NCBI GenBank assembly: GCA_031265595.1
Contig: JAISCM010000013.1
Location: forward strand, 1-6,444
Length of the DNA stretch: 6,444 bases
Source: Tannerellaceae bacterium
GTDB taxonomy: Bacteria > Bacteroidota > Bacteroidia > Bacteroidales > Tannerellaceae
Reading direction: 5' to 3'
The notes beneath the pieces are model-generated. The model saw nothing but the letters and a program-made list of their open reading frames with translations, was not told where the DNA came from and searched no databases. Below, in pieces: positions 172 to 5,831 of this stretch (positions are counted from its first letter, which is position 1; each line of letters starts with the position of its first letter). The position numbers were made by a program, and so were the translations under genes.

Positions 172-567
172 ATGCTGAGAAGAGACTTTATTTTGACACA
201 GATTGAAGAGTTGGGGAAAGTAATCGCCCAAATCATCGCCCGAAGGAATGCAAATGACGCAGGGAAAATCCCGCAATTAGTGCAGGTGGTCTACGATTCG
301 CTGAAGATTGACCGCCGGTTCCTGTTGGACAAGGAGCCGCACGACATTCGTCAGTTTCTCGACGGCGAGGACGGCGCAGGCCTGCAACGACTCGAAATAG
401 CTGCAAAGACGCTATTGGAAGAGGCTTATTCGGATACTGAAAATGCAGGGAAAATGCGCTCGAAGGCCAAAGGGCTTTTGGAATATATCCAGGCAAGGGA
501 TACGACGTTCTCTCTGGAGAGGGCTCAATTGTTAAAGGAGTTAGAGGAGTTAAAGGAGTCAGAGTAG
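172..567 (+). CDS. Small helical protein of unknown function downstream of the cyclophilin gene
   Basis: The product is 131 residues, soluble, charged and apparently all-helical, with no signal peptide or membrane segment. It opens MLRRDFILTQIEELGKVIAQ, an amphipathic helix. Two further helical blocks follow, around residues 30-65 and 70-108. The lay-out (an opening D-[YF]-I-L-x-x-I-E helix, then a segment with hydrophobic 'L..D..FL' spacing, then a helical hairpin) is reminiscent of the DUF6483 proteins of Firmicutes as I remember them, but I cannot assign the family by eye. The start at 172 leaves 12 bases after the upstream stop, with no Shine-Dalgarno, as usual in Bacteroidetes. The last 12 residues, LKELEELKESE preceded by L, are encoded by a degenerate 9-bp tandem repeat that continues past the stop. 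The extreme C-terminus may therefore be repeat-derived rather than ancestral. Function unknown. Confidence 0.75.
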   Translation: MLRRDFILTQIEELGKVIAQIIARRNANDAGKIPQLVQVVYDSLKIDRRFLLDKEPHDIRQFLDGEDGAGLQRLEIAAKTLLEEAYSDTENAGKMRSKAKGLLEYIQARDTTFSLERAQLLKELEELKESE

Positions 568-574
568 TTAAGTA
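531..574. repeat. Degenerate 9-bp tandem repeat spanning the end of the upstream gene
   Basis: Five consecutive units are visible: gttaaagga (531), gttagagga (540), gttaaagga (549), gtcagagta (558) and a shortened gttaagta (567-574). The first four units encode the Leu-Lys/Glu-Glu ending of the 172-567 product, and the stop codon TAG at 565-567 falls at the junction of units four and five. Related units, gttaagta twice (861-868 and 869-876), reappear on the far side of the large palindrome. This suggests that the palindrome sits inside a longer repeat tract. Confidence 0.8.
563..574 (+). repeat. 12-bp direct repeat, left copy (right copy at 865-876)
   Basis: AGTAGTTAAGTA occurs at 563-574 and again, identical, at 865-876, exactly bracketing the palindromic element. 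It could be a target-site duplication from insertion of the element. Alternatively it is simply two members of the 9-bp tandem repeat tract that was already there. The sequence alone does not separate these. Confidence 0.7.
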
Positions 575-864
575 ACGTGAGTTCGATATAAGCCACATCG
601 TGGCGCATTCCTGTAAGGAATAAAGAGCTGAGGGCAGGGTTTCAACCCTGTCGACGGAAACGCCTCCCCCCTGATTCACAGCCCTGAAAGGGCGTTATAA
701 TGCAGAGAATAATTATAACGCCCTTTCAGGGCTGTGGATTCGGAGGGGGCGCTCCGGGCGACAGGGTTGAAACCCTGCCCTATGTTCTCTGTTCCCTTCG
801 GGAACCCGGCCACGTTGTGGCTTATATGCCATGCTGTTGATAAGCTTATATCGAACTCACGTTA
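573..864. repeat. Large nested palindromic element (about 290 bp) between convergent genes
   Basis: The whole gap between the convergent genes is one imperfect inverted repeat. Three arm pairs are exact: 573-593 with 844-864 (21 bp), 631-653 with 759-781 (23 bp), and 677-701 with 712-736 (25 bp, 10-base loop at 702-711). Between them, 587-604 pairs with 809-826 with one mismatch. Each arm is itself made of short hairpins: GCCAC/GTGGC (592-604; 809-821), ATTCCT/AGGAAT (607-621) matched by GTTCCC/GGGAAC (791-805), CAGGGTT/AACCCTG (635-650; 762-777) and GCCCT/AGGGC (681-693; 720-732). The right arm has about 20 extra bases near 825-843. It has no credible gene inside. In style it resembles REP/BIME-type elements mobilised in trans by IS200-like RAYT transposases. 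That identity is inference, because no transposase is present here. It could also act as a bidirectional transcription barrier. Confidence 0.9.
677..736. terminator. Central perfect hairpin, possible bidirectional terminator
   Basis: A perfect 25-bp stem (677-701 with 712-736) closes on a 10-base loop. Transcribed from either side it would fold into a very stable hairpin at the centre of the palindrome, between a plus-strand gene ending at 567 and a minus-strand gene ending at 900. No run of U follows the stem, so it is not a canonical intrinsic terminator. A role in stopping or protecting the converging transcripts is inferred from position only. Confidence 0.4.
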
Positions 865-876
865 AGTAGTTAAGTA
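865..876 (+). repeat. 12-bp direct repeat, right copy (left copy at 563-574)
   Basis: This copy of AGTAGTTAAGTA is identical to 563-574 and immediately follows the right end of the palindrome. It overlaps two tandem gttaagta units (861-868, 869-876). See the left copy for the two possible origins. Confidence 0.7.
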
Positions 877-2672: not shown

Positions 2673-4040
2673 TTATCCGAATAATTGACGGAAGGCTTCT
2701 TCTACTTTCCGTACCTGTACGATTTGTATCCTGCATTTGGCGGTATCGAAGCCCTTCAGGTTATTATGCGGGATCAGGATACGCTTAAATCCCAGCTTTT
2801 CGGCTTCAAGAATACGTTGCTCGATACGGTTTACCGGACGTATCTCGCCCGACAACCCTACCTCTCCCGACAAACAAACGCCGCTCTCTATCGTAATATC
2901 CAGACTCGACGACAGCACCGCGCTGATAACAGCCAGGTCGATAGCCGGGTCGTTTACTTTCAGACCGCCGGCAATATTGAGGAAAACGTCTTTTTGTATC
3001 AGTTTAAAACCGGCGCGCTTCTCCAATACGGCCAGCAACATATTCATACGCCGCAGGTCGAAACCCGTAGCGCTCCGCTGAGGCGTACCATAAACCGCCG
3101 ACCCCGTCAGCGCCTGCGTCTCGATAAGAAAAGAACGTACCCCTTCGATAGCTGCGGCAATGGCTACTCCGCTCAGCCCCTCGTGATTCTGCGTAAGTAA
3201 TAATTCCGACGGATTGCTTACCTGGCGCAGTCCGTTTTGCCGCATCTCATAAATGCCCAGTTCCGCCGTACTTCCGAAACGATTCTTGATGCTCCGCAGG
3301 ATACGGTACATATAATGCTGGTCTCCCTCAAACTGCAAAACGGTATCTACGATATGCTCCAATACCTTCGGGCCGGCAATGCTTCCTTCCTTATTAATAT
3401 GCCCGATAAGAAGAACCGGCACCCCGCTTTCCTTGGCGTATTTCAGGATCAAAGCGCTACATTCGCGTACCTGCGAAACACTCCCGGGCGACGACTCCGC
3501 CCTTTCGGTATAAATGGTTTGAATGGAGTCTATAATCAGTAAATCAGGCTGTATGTTCTGTATCTGTACAAAGATTTGTTCCAGATTCGTCTCGCTCAGA
3601 ATGTAGCAATCCGGATTCGTATGCGCAATCCGGTCGGCGCGCAGTTTCAGTTGCTGTGCACTTTCCTCTCCCGACACATAAAGCGTTTTCAGGCTGTCCA
3701 GCCCCAGGATCGTTTGTAGTATCAGCGTAGACTTTCCGATACCCGGTTCGCCTCCGATCAGCGCCAGCGACCCCTTAACGAGGCCGCCTCCCAATACCCG
3801 GTTCAACTCATCATCTTTTAAGTCGATACGCGCCTCTTCCGTAGCAGTAATATCGCGCAGCAGGACAGGCCGCGCCTTCTCCCTGTCTGTCAGTCCGGAA
3901 ATAACCCGCCTCGCCGGTTCTTTGGCAATAAGCTCTTCCACATACGTATTCCATTCGCCGCAGGAAGGGCACTTCCCGATCCATTTAGGCGAATCCATCC
4001 CGCAGGCAGAGCATATATAAACAGTTTTTGTCTTACCCAT
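2673..4040 (-). CDS. radA: DNA repair protein RadA (Sms)
   Basis: The product is 455 residues, the usual full length. RadA is a RecA-like ATPase and hexameric helicase that promotes branch migration of recombination intermediates and works with RecA in recombinational repair. The N-terminal four-cysteine zinc finger is intact (Cys10, Cys13, Cys24, Cys27). Walker A is GEPGIGKST at 97-105 and Walker B is LLIID at 167-171. The RadA signature KNRFG is at 252-256. The C-terminal third, from about residue 275, is the Lon-protease-like domain, which serves as a structural and DNA-binding module in this family. The ATG at 4040 gives the standard MGKTKTVYICSACG start. A good Bacteroidetes -7 element lies 17-24 bases upstream, so the leader should be very short. 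It is the first gene of the minus-strand cluster. Nothing is truncated or missing. Confidence 0.97.
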   Translation of the reverse strand: MGKTKTVYICSACGMDSPKWIGKCPSCGEWNTYVEELIAKEPARRVISGLTDREKARPVLLRDITATEEARIDLKDDELNRVLGGGLVKGSLALIGGEPGIGKSTLILQTILGLDSLKTLYVSGEESAQQLKLRADRIAHTNPDCYILSETNLEQIFVQIQNIQPDLLIIDSIQTIYTERAESSPGSVSQVRECSALILKYAKESGVPVLLIGHINKEGSIAGPKVLEHIVDTVLQFEGDQHYMYRILRSIKNRFGSTAELGIYEMRQNGLRQVSNPSELLLTQNHEGLSGVAIAAAIEGVRSFLIETQALTGSAVYGTPQRSATGFDLRRMNMLLAVLEKRAGFKLIQKDVFLNIAGGLKVNDPAIDLAVISAVLSSSLDITIESGVCLSGEVGLSGEIRPVNRIEQRILEAEKLGFKRILIPHNNLKGFDTAKCRIQIVQVRKVEEAFRQLFG

Positions 4041-4049
4041 TCCTTAAAG

Positions 4050-4091
4050 CTTTCCGCAAATATACGGAAATAATATAATTATTGCGGAAAG
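4050..4091. promoter_or_regulatory. 10-bp perfect inverted repeat spanning the radA promoter
   Basis: CTTTCCGCAA (4050-4059) is repeated in inverse as TTGCGGAAAG (4082-4091), with 22 bases between. A third half-copy, CGGAAA, lies at 4065-4070 and pairs with TTTCCG at 4051-4056. The dyad covers the -7 element and the start-site region of radA, so it may be a repressor site or an mRNA-leader structure. No regulator is identified. Confidence 0.45.
4057..4064 (-). promoter_or_regulatory. Predicted -7 promoter element of the radA cluster
   Basis: On the minus strand the sequence reads TATATTTG, an exact match to the Bacteroidetes primary-sigma -7 consensus TAnnTTTG, followed by C as is common. 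It lies about 17-24 bases upstream of the radA ATG, so transcription should begin roughly ten bases before the gene. The -33 TTTG element is weak: the nearest match is TTTC, 22 bases upstream. Confidence 0.55.
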
Positions 4092-4155
4092 ACAGATAAT
4101 TCCTGCCCAATGCCTGAATATAATGAAAAAAAGTATAGAGGAAAATACAAGACTC

Positions 4156-4193
4156 AACTTTTTTCCGTAAGTTTACATACTTAATAAAAAGTT
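4156..4193. promoter_or_regulatory. Nested dyad upstream of the vapBC-like genes, candidate autoregulatory operator
   Basis: The outer arms AACTTTTT (4156-4163) and AAAAAGTT (4186-4193) are perfect inverse copies. The inner arms TAAGT (4168-4172) and ACTTA (4179-4183) form a second dyad whose centre differs by one base. The block ends 6 bases before the antitoxin ATG and covers the putative -7 element. VapB-type antitoxins, alone or with their toxin, commonly repress their own promoter through such palindromes. Assigning this one as the operator is inference. Confidence 0.5.
4168..4175 (+). promoter_or_regulatory. Possible -7 element for the vapBC-like genes
   Basis: TAAGTTTA matches TAnnTTTG at all fixed positions except the last. 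It lies 25-32 bases before the ATG at 4200. No TTTG is seen at the expected -33 distance, so this is a tentative call supported mainly by its position inside the dyad. Confidence 0.35.
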
Positions 4194-4199
4194 TTTGTC

Positions 4200-4457
4200 A
4201 TGTCAGTAACAGTATATAATGAAAAAAATGTGATTCATGCTTTTGAAACGCTGTTCGATACGCTTGATTATTCCAATAAAAAAGCATTGGTAGATTATTT
4301 TGTTAAATCATTGGAAAAAGAGCGCAAGTCTAAGGAAAAAGATTTTTTCCGCTTATATGGCGCATGGAAGTCAGATAAAAGCGCAGAGGAAATTATCGAC
4401 GAAATCCGTCTCAGTCGTAGCAGTGGAAATACCCGTTTTATTGAAAATTTAGATTAA
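4200..4457 (+). CDS. VapB-like antitoxin of a PIN-domain toxin-antitoxin pair
   Basis: The product is 85 residues, with no membrane segment. The N-terminal half (MSVTVYNEKNVIHAFETLFD and on to about residue 45) is helical and probably forms the dimerisation and DNA-binding part. The C-terminal part, LYGAWKSDKSAEEIIDEIR then NTRFIENLD, is the charged tail typical of antitoxins that wrap the partner PIN nuclease and block its active site. The identification rests chiefly on this tail and on the immediately following PIN-domain gene: the stop TAA (4455-4457) shares its last base with the toxin ATG. The antitoxin-first order is usual. Likely to repress its own promoter through the dyad at 4156-4193 (inferred). 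The coding sequence is clearly AT-richer than radA and the dehydrogenase gene, consistent with acquisition by transfer. I cannot name the antitoxin subfamily. Confidence 0.8.
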   Translation: MSVTVYNEKNVIHAFETLFDTLDYSNKKALVDYFVKSLEKERKSKEKDFFRLYGAWKSDKSAEEIIDEIRLSRSSGNTRFIENLD

Positions 4458-4870
4458 TGATGGATAAATACTTGTTAGATACTAATATTTGTATTTTCTT
4501 CCTTCGTGGAAAATATGATGTGGATAAACAAATAAGAAGTATAGGAATCGATAATTGTTGTATATCGGAAATCACAATAGCCGAATTGCTGTATGGAGTT
4601 GAATGTGATTTGCTTTACGCAGAAGAAAACAAAAAACGGGTAATGGAATTTGTTAATATAATGTCGGTCATACCTATCTCAAATGCACTTCCGGTTTATG
4701 CGAAGGAAAAATTTTTACTTCGAAAAAGCGGAACTTTAATTGATGATATGGATATTTTTATCGGTGCAACAGCTATTGCAAACGATATGATTCTGGTAAC
4801 CGACAATGAAAAACACTTAAATCGTCTGTCAAAAATCAAGATAGAGAATTGGATAGAGAGAAAGAACTGA
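4457..4870 (+). CDS. vapC: PIN-domain ribonuclease toxin, VapC type
   Basis: The product is 137 residues, normal for VapC. VapC toxins are Mg-dependent endoribonucleases that cut tRNA or rRNA when freed from the antitoxin, arresting translation. The acidic PIN active site is present: Asp8 in LLDTNI, Glu43 in SEITIAELLYG, Asp97/Asp99 in IDDMDIFIGATA, and Asp116 in VTDN. All the expected metal-binding positions are filled, so the enzyme should be active. Two start codons lie in tandem, ATG 4457 and ATG 4460. I take the first because it overlaps the antitoxin stop by one base, as in translationally coupled pairs, but either gives essentially the same protein. The exact RNA target cannot be read from the sequence. 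It is followed after 32 bases by the DUF3791 gene on the same strand. Confidence 0.92.
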   Translation: MMDKYLLDTNICIFFLRGKYDVDKQIRSIGIDNCCISEITIAELLYGVECDLLYAEENKKRVMEFVNIMSVIPISNALPVYAKEKFLLRKSGTLIDDMDIFIGATAIANDMILVTDNEKHLNRLSKIKIENWIERKN

Positions 4871-4902: not shown

Positions 4903-5151
4903 ATGGGAACATCATTGGAAAAGAATATGTTAGATAAGGACGCGAGCGACAGAATCAGTTTCATTACATTTATTATTCCTTATTTTGCCCGTTCATACAA
5001 GATGGACAGGCAGGAAGCCTATCGGTATTTAAAGAAATACGGCGGAATAGATTTTCTTTTTAAACACTGGTGGGCATTGCATACCGATAACCCGTTTTGG
5101 GCAGCACGTGATTTATACGAAGTTTGCCGCAAGAATGGGGGTCTGCGATGA
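4903..5151 (+). CDS. DUF3791 family protein, candidate antitoxin of the DUF3990 neighbour
   Basis: The product is 82 residues and predicted helical. It shows the DUF3791 pattern as I know it: a first helix with hydrophobic spacing (SFITFIIPYFARSYKM, 19-34), the EAYRYLKKYGGIDFL block (38-52) and the LHT motif (59-61), which is followed by a terminal helix. DUF3791 genes repeatedly occur beside DUF3990 genes in Bacteroidetes and Firmicutes, which suggests a toxin-antitoxin-like or regulatory partnership; a biochemical role is not established to my knowledge. The stop TGA (5149-5151) overlaps the ATG of the DUF3990 gene as ATGA, so the two are translationally coupled. The start at 4903 has an A-rich leader without a Shine-Dalgarno. 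The next ATG, at codon 9, is an alternative that would not remove any domain residues. Confidence 0.8.
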   Translation: MGTSLEKNMLDKDASDRISFITFIIPYFARSYKMDRQEAYRYLKKYGGIDFLFKHWWALHTDNPFWAARDLYEVCRKNGGLR

Positions 5152-5831
5152 AAGTTTATTACGGCAGCTATACTTTAATCGAAAAGATTGACTTGGCGAA
5201 ATGTCAGCCCGGCAGAGATTTCGGACGAGGATTTTATATCACTAAAATTCGTTCTCAGGCAGAATATTGGGCGAAACGAATCGGAGATAAAAATAATATG
5301 AAAGGTGTTGTAACCGAATTTAAATTCATGGAATACGCGTTTGATTATGAAAAATTGAATACGCTTCGTTTTGACCATTACTGTGAAGAATGGCTTGATT
5401 TCATCCTTCTCAATCGTACAAATACAAGCCTTAAACAGGTACATGGCTACGACATCGTAGAAGGACCTGTTGCCGATGACCAGGTTACCCGTCGTATCTT
5501 TGCTTTTCTAAACGGAACAGTATCCAAAGCCGATTTTCTGGAAGAACTGAAATTTTTCCGTTATACGCATCAGATAGCTTTATGTACCGTCGGTGCGCTA
5601 CAAATGATAGAACGAAAAGTCGATAAATCAGAATTGATTATCGACGACATTGACGAAGCCATAACCGGAGCGCTTGTCATTGACTACAGGATGACGGAAG
5701 AAAAAGCTCTTGACGTTTATTTGGAATCCGGGATATACAAAACACTTATCGACGAATCCACCGGACTGTATCAAAAGCCGTGGACGGAAGTCTATCAACT
5801 TCTCCTGCAAGAATTGAAATTGGAAAAATAA
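5148..5831 (+). CDS. DUF3990 family protein, ADP-ribosyltransferase-like, candidate toxin
   Basis: The product is 227 residues. The N-terminal region (1 to about 110) carries the DUF3990 signature: VYYGSYTLIEKIDL, then RDFGRGFYIT (23-32) and QAEYWA (37-42), later CEEWLDFILLNR (79-90) and YDIVEGPVADD (101-111). DUF3990 is related to the ADP-ribosyltransferase fold, so NAD-dependent modification of a cellular target is plausible but unproven. Residue 5 is Tyr where relatives I remember have His (YHGS). The frame is open back to a TTG at 5124, but the ATG at 5148 starts exactly at the family motif and gives the ATGA overlap with the upstream gene, so I chose it. Residues 160-227 form an acidic helical extension ending TGLYQKPWTEVYQLLLQE, possibly a separate module. 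The gene is AT-rich like the rest of the islet. No membrane or secretion signal is seen. Confidence 0.85.
   Translation: MKVYYGSYTLIEKIDLAKCQPGRDFGRGFYITKIRSQAEYWAKRIGDKNNMKGVVTEFKFMEYAFDYEKLNTLRFDHYCEEWLDFILLNRTNTSLKQVHGYDIVEGPVADDQVTRRIFAFLNGTVSKADFLEELKFFRYTHQIALCTVGALQMIERKVDKSELIIDDIDEAITGALVIDYRMTEEKALDVYLESGIYKTLIDESTGLYQKPWTEVYQLLLQELKLEK

Follow-up and report, generated by a model that had tools for sequence, protein, structure and literature searches.

A contig of a Tannerellaceae bacterium (GCA_031265595.1, JAISCM010000013.1) carries a large nested palindrome at 573-864 of its first 6,444 bp, the stretch referred to here as the window. What kind of element is this, and which transposition system could have brought it there? 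An earlier note, made from the sequence alone, had described exact arms of 21, 23 and 25 bp built of smaller hairpins, and both parts of this description were confirmed. The outer (573-593 and 844-864, 21 bp), middle (631-653 and 759-781, 23 bp) and inner (677-701 and 712-736, 25 bp) arm pairs are exact complements. Smaller palindromes inside the arms could be read on the plus strand as GCCACATCGTGGC (592-604), ATTCCTGTAAGGAAT (607-621), GCCCTGAAAGGGC (681-693), TTCCCTTCGGGAA (792-804) and GCCACGTTGTGGC (809-821), and a repeat listing of the window gave, on the same strand, a left copy, CAGGGTTTCAACCCTG (635-650), and a right copy, CAGGGTTGAAACCCTG (762-777). The segments 591-604 and 809-822 agree in 13 of their 14 positions. 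On the right side, 17 extra nucleotides of the plus strand (828-844) break the symmetry of the outer arms; they lie between one copy of GCTTATAT at 820-827 and a second at 844-851, with base 844 shared.

The fold predicted for 560-880 reached -205.5 kcal/mol, compared with -96.6 ± 5.2 kcal/mol for 100 dinucleotide shuffles (z = -21), and that of the minus strand was similarly extreme (z = -21.5 against dinucleotide shuffles). No family reached its gathering threshold in an Rfam scan, and a comparison of 560-880 with plasmid and phage collections returned no matches. The palindrome lies between two convergent open reading frames (ORFs), 172-567 on the plus strand and 900-1094 on the minus strand. 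The last codons of the former are tandem 9-mers of the GTTAAAGGA type (531-566), directly before the element; by eye, such 9-mers are absent from the related genomes G034 and G017.

The extent given in the earlier note, 573-864, holds for the palindrome but not for the element, whose ends are at 575 and 862 (288 bp), the outer TA on either side being part of a 6-bp target duplication. This duplication, TAAGTA, matches exactly across the element (569-574 and 863-868, plus strand). Immediately inside it lies a terminal inverted repeat of IS982 type, ACGTGAGTTCGATATAAG, at 575-592 on the plus strand, whose exact reverse complement occupies 845-862. The 17-mer CGTGAGTTCGATATAAG from the outer arms was found in at least 119 stretches of public genomes and also in 4 viral contigs. 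By record label, the matches listed are mostly from Bacteroidota, the other labels including Calditrichaeota, Acidobacteria, Poribacteria, Nitrosomonas and more, although some of these are metagenome bins whose labels may err. In two of these stretches (L024 and L037) the same 17-base core stands at both ends, 1068 and 1031 bp apart, and the transposases there match PF13612 and score 242 and 251 bits against the IS982 model NF033520 (cut-off 130).

We then scored as a paired-end element every exact 17-mer end accompanied by another end with at most 4 mismatches, measuring lengths between the cores. Among the matches listed there are 54 such elements, the window's included: 6 measure 1030-1450 bp (the content of two of which, L024 and L037, was covered) and 48 measure 56-542 bp. 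Among the 54 pairs, six, including L104, have 4 mismatches at one end, a point that counts against the explanation preferred below. Flanking direct repeats without mismatch, 5-8 bp long, for the most part 6-7 bp and in most cases beginning with TA, occur at 26 of the 54 elements, with L105 and L110, whose right flanks are cut off by contig ends, scored as misses; when a left flank was combined with the right flank of another element, the rate was about 1.8%. A 12-bp repeat, AGTAGTTAAGTA, at 563-574 and 865-876 was considered as a longer target duplication and rejected by the same comparison, which places the boundary at ACGTGAG with a duplication of 6 bp and leaves the remainder of AGTAGTTAAGTA in a repetitive target. 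At 288 bp, below 600 bp, the element is too short for a transposase gene, and the one listed ORF of at least 50 aa that overlaps it (233-679, minus strand) runs out into ORF1. Judged by sequence, the outermost 18 bp (575-592 and 845-862) are IS982-family ends; together with the TAAGTA duplication, they identify the outer layer as an IS982-type MITE.

Several other elements with such ends deserve mention in their own right. In a Poribacteria record (L057) the IS982-type ends are 1450 bp apart, compared with 1.03-1.07 kb in the elements above. Five 161-bp IS982-ended elements labeled Calditrichaeota CLD2 (L006, L020, L039, L052 and L116) have a GC-rich palindrome in common, and four of the five are flanked by exact 6-7 bp duplications; this palindrome matched neither of two Y1 loci of the same genome. 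Another IS982-ended element, L203 (G039:C1), contains a large nested palindrome, and a Y1_Tnp search of G039 found none.

The inner layer has a different distribution. A BLAST search of 573-864 against a group of 123 genomes, which takes in a Tannerella MAG (G001) and Bacteroidales bacterium Barb4 (G002), gave matches in 7 genomes, and the palindrome was matched at length only in G021 and G105. The long G021 matches (>190 nt) fall on three contigs, have 69-77% identity and stay within query positions 19-250, that is, window 591-822. Copies are dispersed over contigs C88, C318 and C227, on the last of which they surround a Y1 transposase gene: in locus L189 they lie at 2434-2654, 3334-3552, about 4135-4247 (a half-palindrome, following the Y1 stop codon) and 4448-4670, the Y1 ORF itself being at 3688-4140. 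Six free copies, five of them in G021 and a partial one in G105, lack any IS982 end up to 80 bp away (best matches, 7-9 mismatches of 18; the C88 copy, near a contig end, offers 26 bp on one side). In the window (plus strand) and in the best-preserved free copy (C227c) the palindrome runs AGCCAC...GTGGCT and has no GTAG-type tag. As these copies indicate, the REP-like, Y1-linked palindrome 591-822 is a separate family from the IS982 ends.

In a comparison of seven copies of the inner palindrome, at least one both-sided change that preserves pairing was seen in 15 of 75 predicted pairs, which we take as modest evidence that pairing has been kept; the total covariation term of this fold, at +0.91, is slightly unfavourable and counts against our preferred explanation. 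By eye, further copies of the 3' end of the Y1 gene (ATGATGAAACGTATTTGT...) accompany the later palindrome copies at 4134-5000 of L189 (G021:C227), which suggests remnants of gene-bearing units.

The earlier note had proposed dispersal by a RAYT-type transposase, an idea that a Y1-type gene flanked by the same hairpins was to support. For the core, a gene so placed was found in a relative (G021:C227). The proposal of dispersal thus stands in part: the free copies of 591-822 and the Y1 gene agree with it, whereas the outer arms, which have the ends of IS982, a DDE system with no relation to RAYTs, and border the TAAGTA duplication, do not, and a pure RAYT reading of those arms was rejected on the free copies without IS982 ends. 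Nor is the linked transposase a canonical RAYT. The G021 protein matches Y1_Tnp (PF01797, 94.5 bits), but scores 22.4 bits against the RAYT model NF047646 (cut-off 80) and 70 bits, above the cut-off of 55, against the IS200 model NF033573. Solved transposases to which it shows sequence likeness include 2xm3 and 2a6m (ISHp608). Its Y motif, YVSNQKIHH, fits Y---Q--HH, and its HuH motif is NHIH. By motif, it resembles TnpA_Y1 subclass 1.2, for which the parts of Quentin et al. 2018 devoted to it (PMC6006769) give the signature Y---Q--HH, the HuH motif DH[IV]H and REP "no". The likeness extends to WQ (by eye) and a length of about 150 aa; unlike the subclass as published there, the G021 protein has NHIH, and loci of this kind have flanking repeats in our samples.

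Of 295 genomes sampled from the class, 148 have related Y1 genes (E ≤ 1e-15). At 31 loci with the Y---Q--HH motif, inverted repeats of at least 40 bits were found in 23 of 62 flanks of about 400 bp, compared with 3 of 151 RadA windows and 3 of 62 windows farther out in the same loci. When the 220 bp upstream of the Y1 gene were compared with the 220 bp downstream at a threshold of 30 bits, 16 of the 31 loci had flank-to-flank inverted repeats, against 6 of 882 cross-genome pairings (L248, being the place of L243, was left out of both tests). A second sample, taken without L353 and L362 (contig edge), L372 (no motif) and L344 (identical to locus L227), gave 10 of 26 loci against 37 of 650 control pairings, a weaker signal with a higher control. 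In the 26 positive loci the repeats are 42-125 bp long; 22 start no more than 60 bp from the ATG, and 19 start no more than 30 bp after the stop. The G021 locus itself has an inverted pair of 33 bp at 79% (29.7 bits), just under the threshold. On these counts, a third to a half of Y---Q--HH Y1 genes lie in TIRtron-like units (a term of PMC3733652); the remaining loci had no such flank repeats by the 30-bit test.

We next compared the interiors of 54 IS982-ended miniatures (the 48 listed short pairs and six from the family genomes) with 50 Y1 loci, L243/L248 being counted twice. Interior and Y1 locus matched in 4 of 66 same-genome pairs and in 6 of 2634 different-genome pairs. For 28 elements a Y1 locus of the same genome was compared, and only 4 of the 28 matched, which counts against our preferred explanation. 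Since the 50 loci are only part of the Y1 places, an unmatched element is no proof of absence, but the interiors of most IS982-ended miniatures are thus without a traced origin. The four same-genome matches are L055 (Mucilaginibacter), where the Y1 gene lies between copies; L068; L104 (Prevotella), with a copy about 37 bp after a Y1 ORF of another class by motif; and L202 (Barb4; L202/L262), with a copy 1.1 kb from the Y1 gene. The six different-genome matches join the window to G021, L076 to two genomes, L055 to two other Mucilaginibacter and the window to L256, the last of which may be chance.

Two of these lineages contain multiplied hybrids. L055 was matched in 5 of 61 sampled genomes of the genus of Mucilaginibacter G137, which itself carries the complete hybrid at six places, 90-100% identical and with exact 8-bp duplications at two of the six. 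In the flanks of two interior-only matches in G137 (L290 and L293), IS982 ends were absent. The Prevotella MAG G147 (2.6 Mb) has 111 IS982 ends at up to 3 mismatches (reversed control, 0), many of them in close pairs of a few recurrent lengths, and is a case of strong MITE expansion. Among 20 loci sampled there, mostly chosen as close pairs of ends, 19 show an end pair, and in 13 of these there is a GTAGGGACATAAT...ATTATGTCCCTAC palindrome or one closely resembling it; exact 6-7 bp duplications, scored by eye, flank five of the 13 (L324, L328, L330, L331 and L335). An 81-bp locus of the same genome, L339, has a similar MITE backbone without the palindrome. We do not take it as proof of an empty site, since GTAGG is retained at its junction and a deletion is just as possible. 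The palindromes of the Mucilaginibacter and Prevotella hybrids are unrelated to that of the window, and there are further hybrids in other bacteria.

Among the relatives of the host, the RadA gene of the window (2673-4040) is closest to those of G017 (91% identity) and G018 (90%) in the group of 123 genomes, which points to a host in the Tannerellaceae. Of these 123 genomes, 36 contain an IS982 end at up to 1 mismatch (reversed control, 0 matches). The gene order of the window recurs in G034. In both G034 and G017 the corresponding intergenic gap is short, and the best IS982-end match there has 9 and 10 mismatches of 18, respectively. A whole hybrid like that of the window was found in none of the 123 genomes, which counts against our preferred explanation. 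Elsewhere in the window, an 85-aa ORF without a Pfam match is followed by a PIN-domain protein (PF01850) at 4200-4870, a pair arranged like a toxin-antitoxin system, and a DUF3791 ORF is followed by a DUF3990 ORF (PF12668 and PF13151) at 4903-5831, possibly another two-gene module.

We consider it very probable that 575-862 is a non-autonomous composite, an IS982-ended MITE with a Y1-linked palindrome as its cargo. This reading is carried by the IS982 ends with their duplication, the free inner copies, the Y1 link in a relative and the multicopy hybrids elsewhere. At the level of sequence, the window joins two repeat systems that each occur alone in other places, and in at least two further genomes comparable combinations have multiplied. 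Duplication of the target typically accompanies DDE transposition, not HUH transposition. Its presence here, the six free copies without an outer arm within 80 bp and the occurrence of the outer arms at IS982 ends that lack the inner palindrome make it highly improbable that all 292 bp, outer arms included, form a single REP/RAYT element dispersed by a Y1 transposase, even though 591-822 does match Y1-flanking palindromes. The target duplication also speaks against the view that a regulatory role has preserved a structured RNA or strong bidirectional terminator here, any transposon origin being secondary. The convergent genes on either side (172-567 and 900-1094) would suit such a role, and the fold would be strong in either transcript; with no Rfam match and with the corresponding gap of G034 and G017 free of any IS982 end, however, we regard this account as scarcely probable, although the mobile element may possess a terminator or mRNA-protecting role today.

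Least probable of all is an ordinary IS982 MITE whose interior is internally deleted IS982 sequence, palindromic by chance. Such derivatives seem to exist, since by eye L204 and L205 look like internal deletions of the insertion sequence with transposase remnants, and the parts of PMC9769881 that concern it describe MITECca01 of Cardinium, a MITE of about 240 bp derived from its parental IS, ISCca4, with IS982-type inverted repeats, no transposase and presumed mobilisation in trans. The interior of the window element is, unlike that of MITECca01, a foreign, Y1-linked palindrome, which matches those of G021 over its whole length. Within the composite reading itself, the order of events could also have been the reverse, the IS982 ends having arisen or recombined around a resident palindrome. 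The terminal repeat directly adjoins the palindrome, which it overlaps by 2 bp on the left, and a partial second copy of the inner end of the terminal repeat (the two copies of GCTTATAT) lies in the right arm, both in keeping with this order; the Prevotella MITE backbone, with the palindrome in some copies and without it in L339, favours insertion or loss within a MITE, although L339 could be a deletion. We consider this reverse order possible but rather unlikely.

Under the preferred reading of a palindrome that entered an IS982 MITE, the outer layer would be moved as double-stranded DNA by an IS982 transposase acting in trans, which would leave an AT-rich duplication of 6-8 bp, and the window copy would have arrived between the two convergent genes in this way. 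The inner nested palindrome would stem from a Y1 (HUH) transposon family with genes that, in many loci, lie between inverted repeats of about 40-125 bp; loss of the gene would bring the two flanking repeats together into a palindrome, which a Y1 protein could then move as single-stranded DNA.

Most likely, the element combines already known kinds, an IS982 MITE and a Y1-linked palindrome, in a new variant form. In common with REPtrons and REPINs (RAYT, TnpA_REP), as the relevant parts of PMC6006769 and PMC3733652 present them, the palindromes are dispersed outside genes and flank a Y1 HUH gene, but they are nested and about 220 bp long rather than 20-40 bp as in REPs, the window palindrome has no GTAG tag and the Y1 protein is not a RAYT by the NCBIfam cut-off. 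TIRtrons and TIRYTs come closer in having a Y1 gene between long, in some cases self-complementary, inverted repeats that form dispersed families (PMC3733652, in its sections on them). Among the TIRYT examples given in part of PMC6006769, however, subclass 2.1 accounts for 20 of 26, with the others in 2.2 and 2.5, whereas the Y1 gene here has the Y motif of subclass 1.2 and the palindromes appear to travel also inside IS982 MITEs. A MITE enclosing another kind of repeat is known from Porphyromonas gingivalis as BrickBuilt, which differs in enclosing 23-bp tandem repeats and in its terminal repeats, as far as the sections of PMC4596501 describing it go. The main text of a 2024 review of prokaryotic MITEs contains neither IS982 nor RAYT nor "nested" (PMC10969869), and our searches of the open-licence literature found REP-type palindromes nowhere described as part of IS982 MITEs.

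The wider reading, to which we give even chances, is that IS982 MITEs are recurrent vehicles of HUH palindromes in several lineages, each with a local Y1 protein (subclass 1.2 or RAYT), that both transposases are able to move the element, as double- and single-stranded DNA, respectively, and that subclass 1.2 Y1 proteins are the transposases of widespread long nested palindromes. If this is true, a transposase subclass reported to have no DNA partner would gain one, and two unrelated transposition systems would share one element. The prediction would be that two different transposases each act on the same 288-bp DNA. The reading might also account for a number of the very long nested intergenic palindromes in these bacteria.
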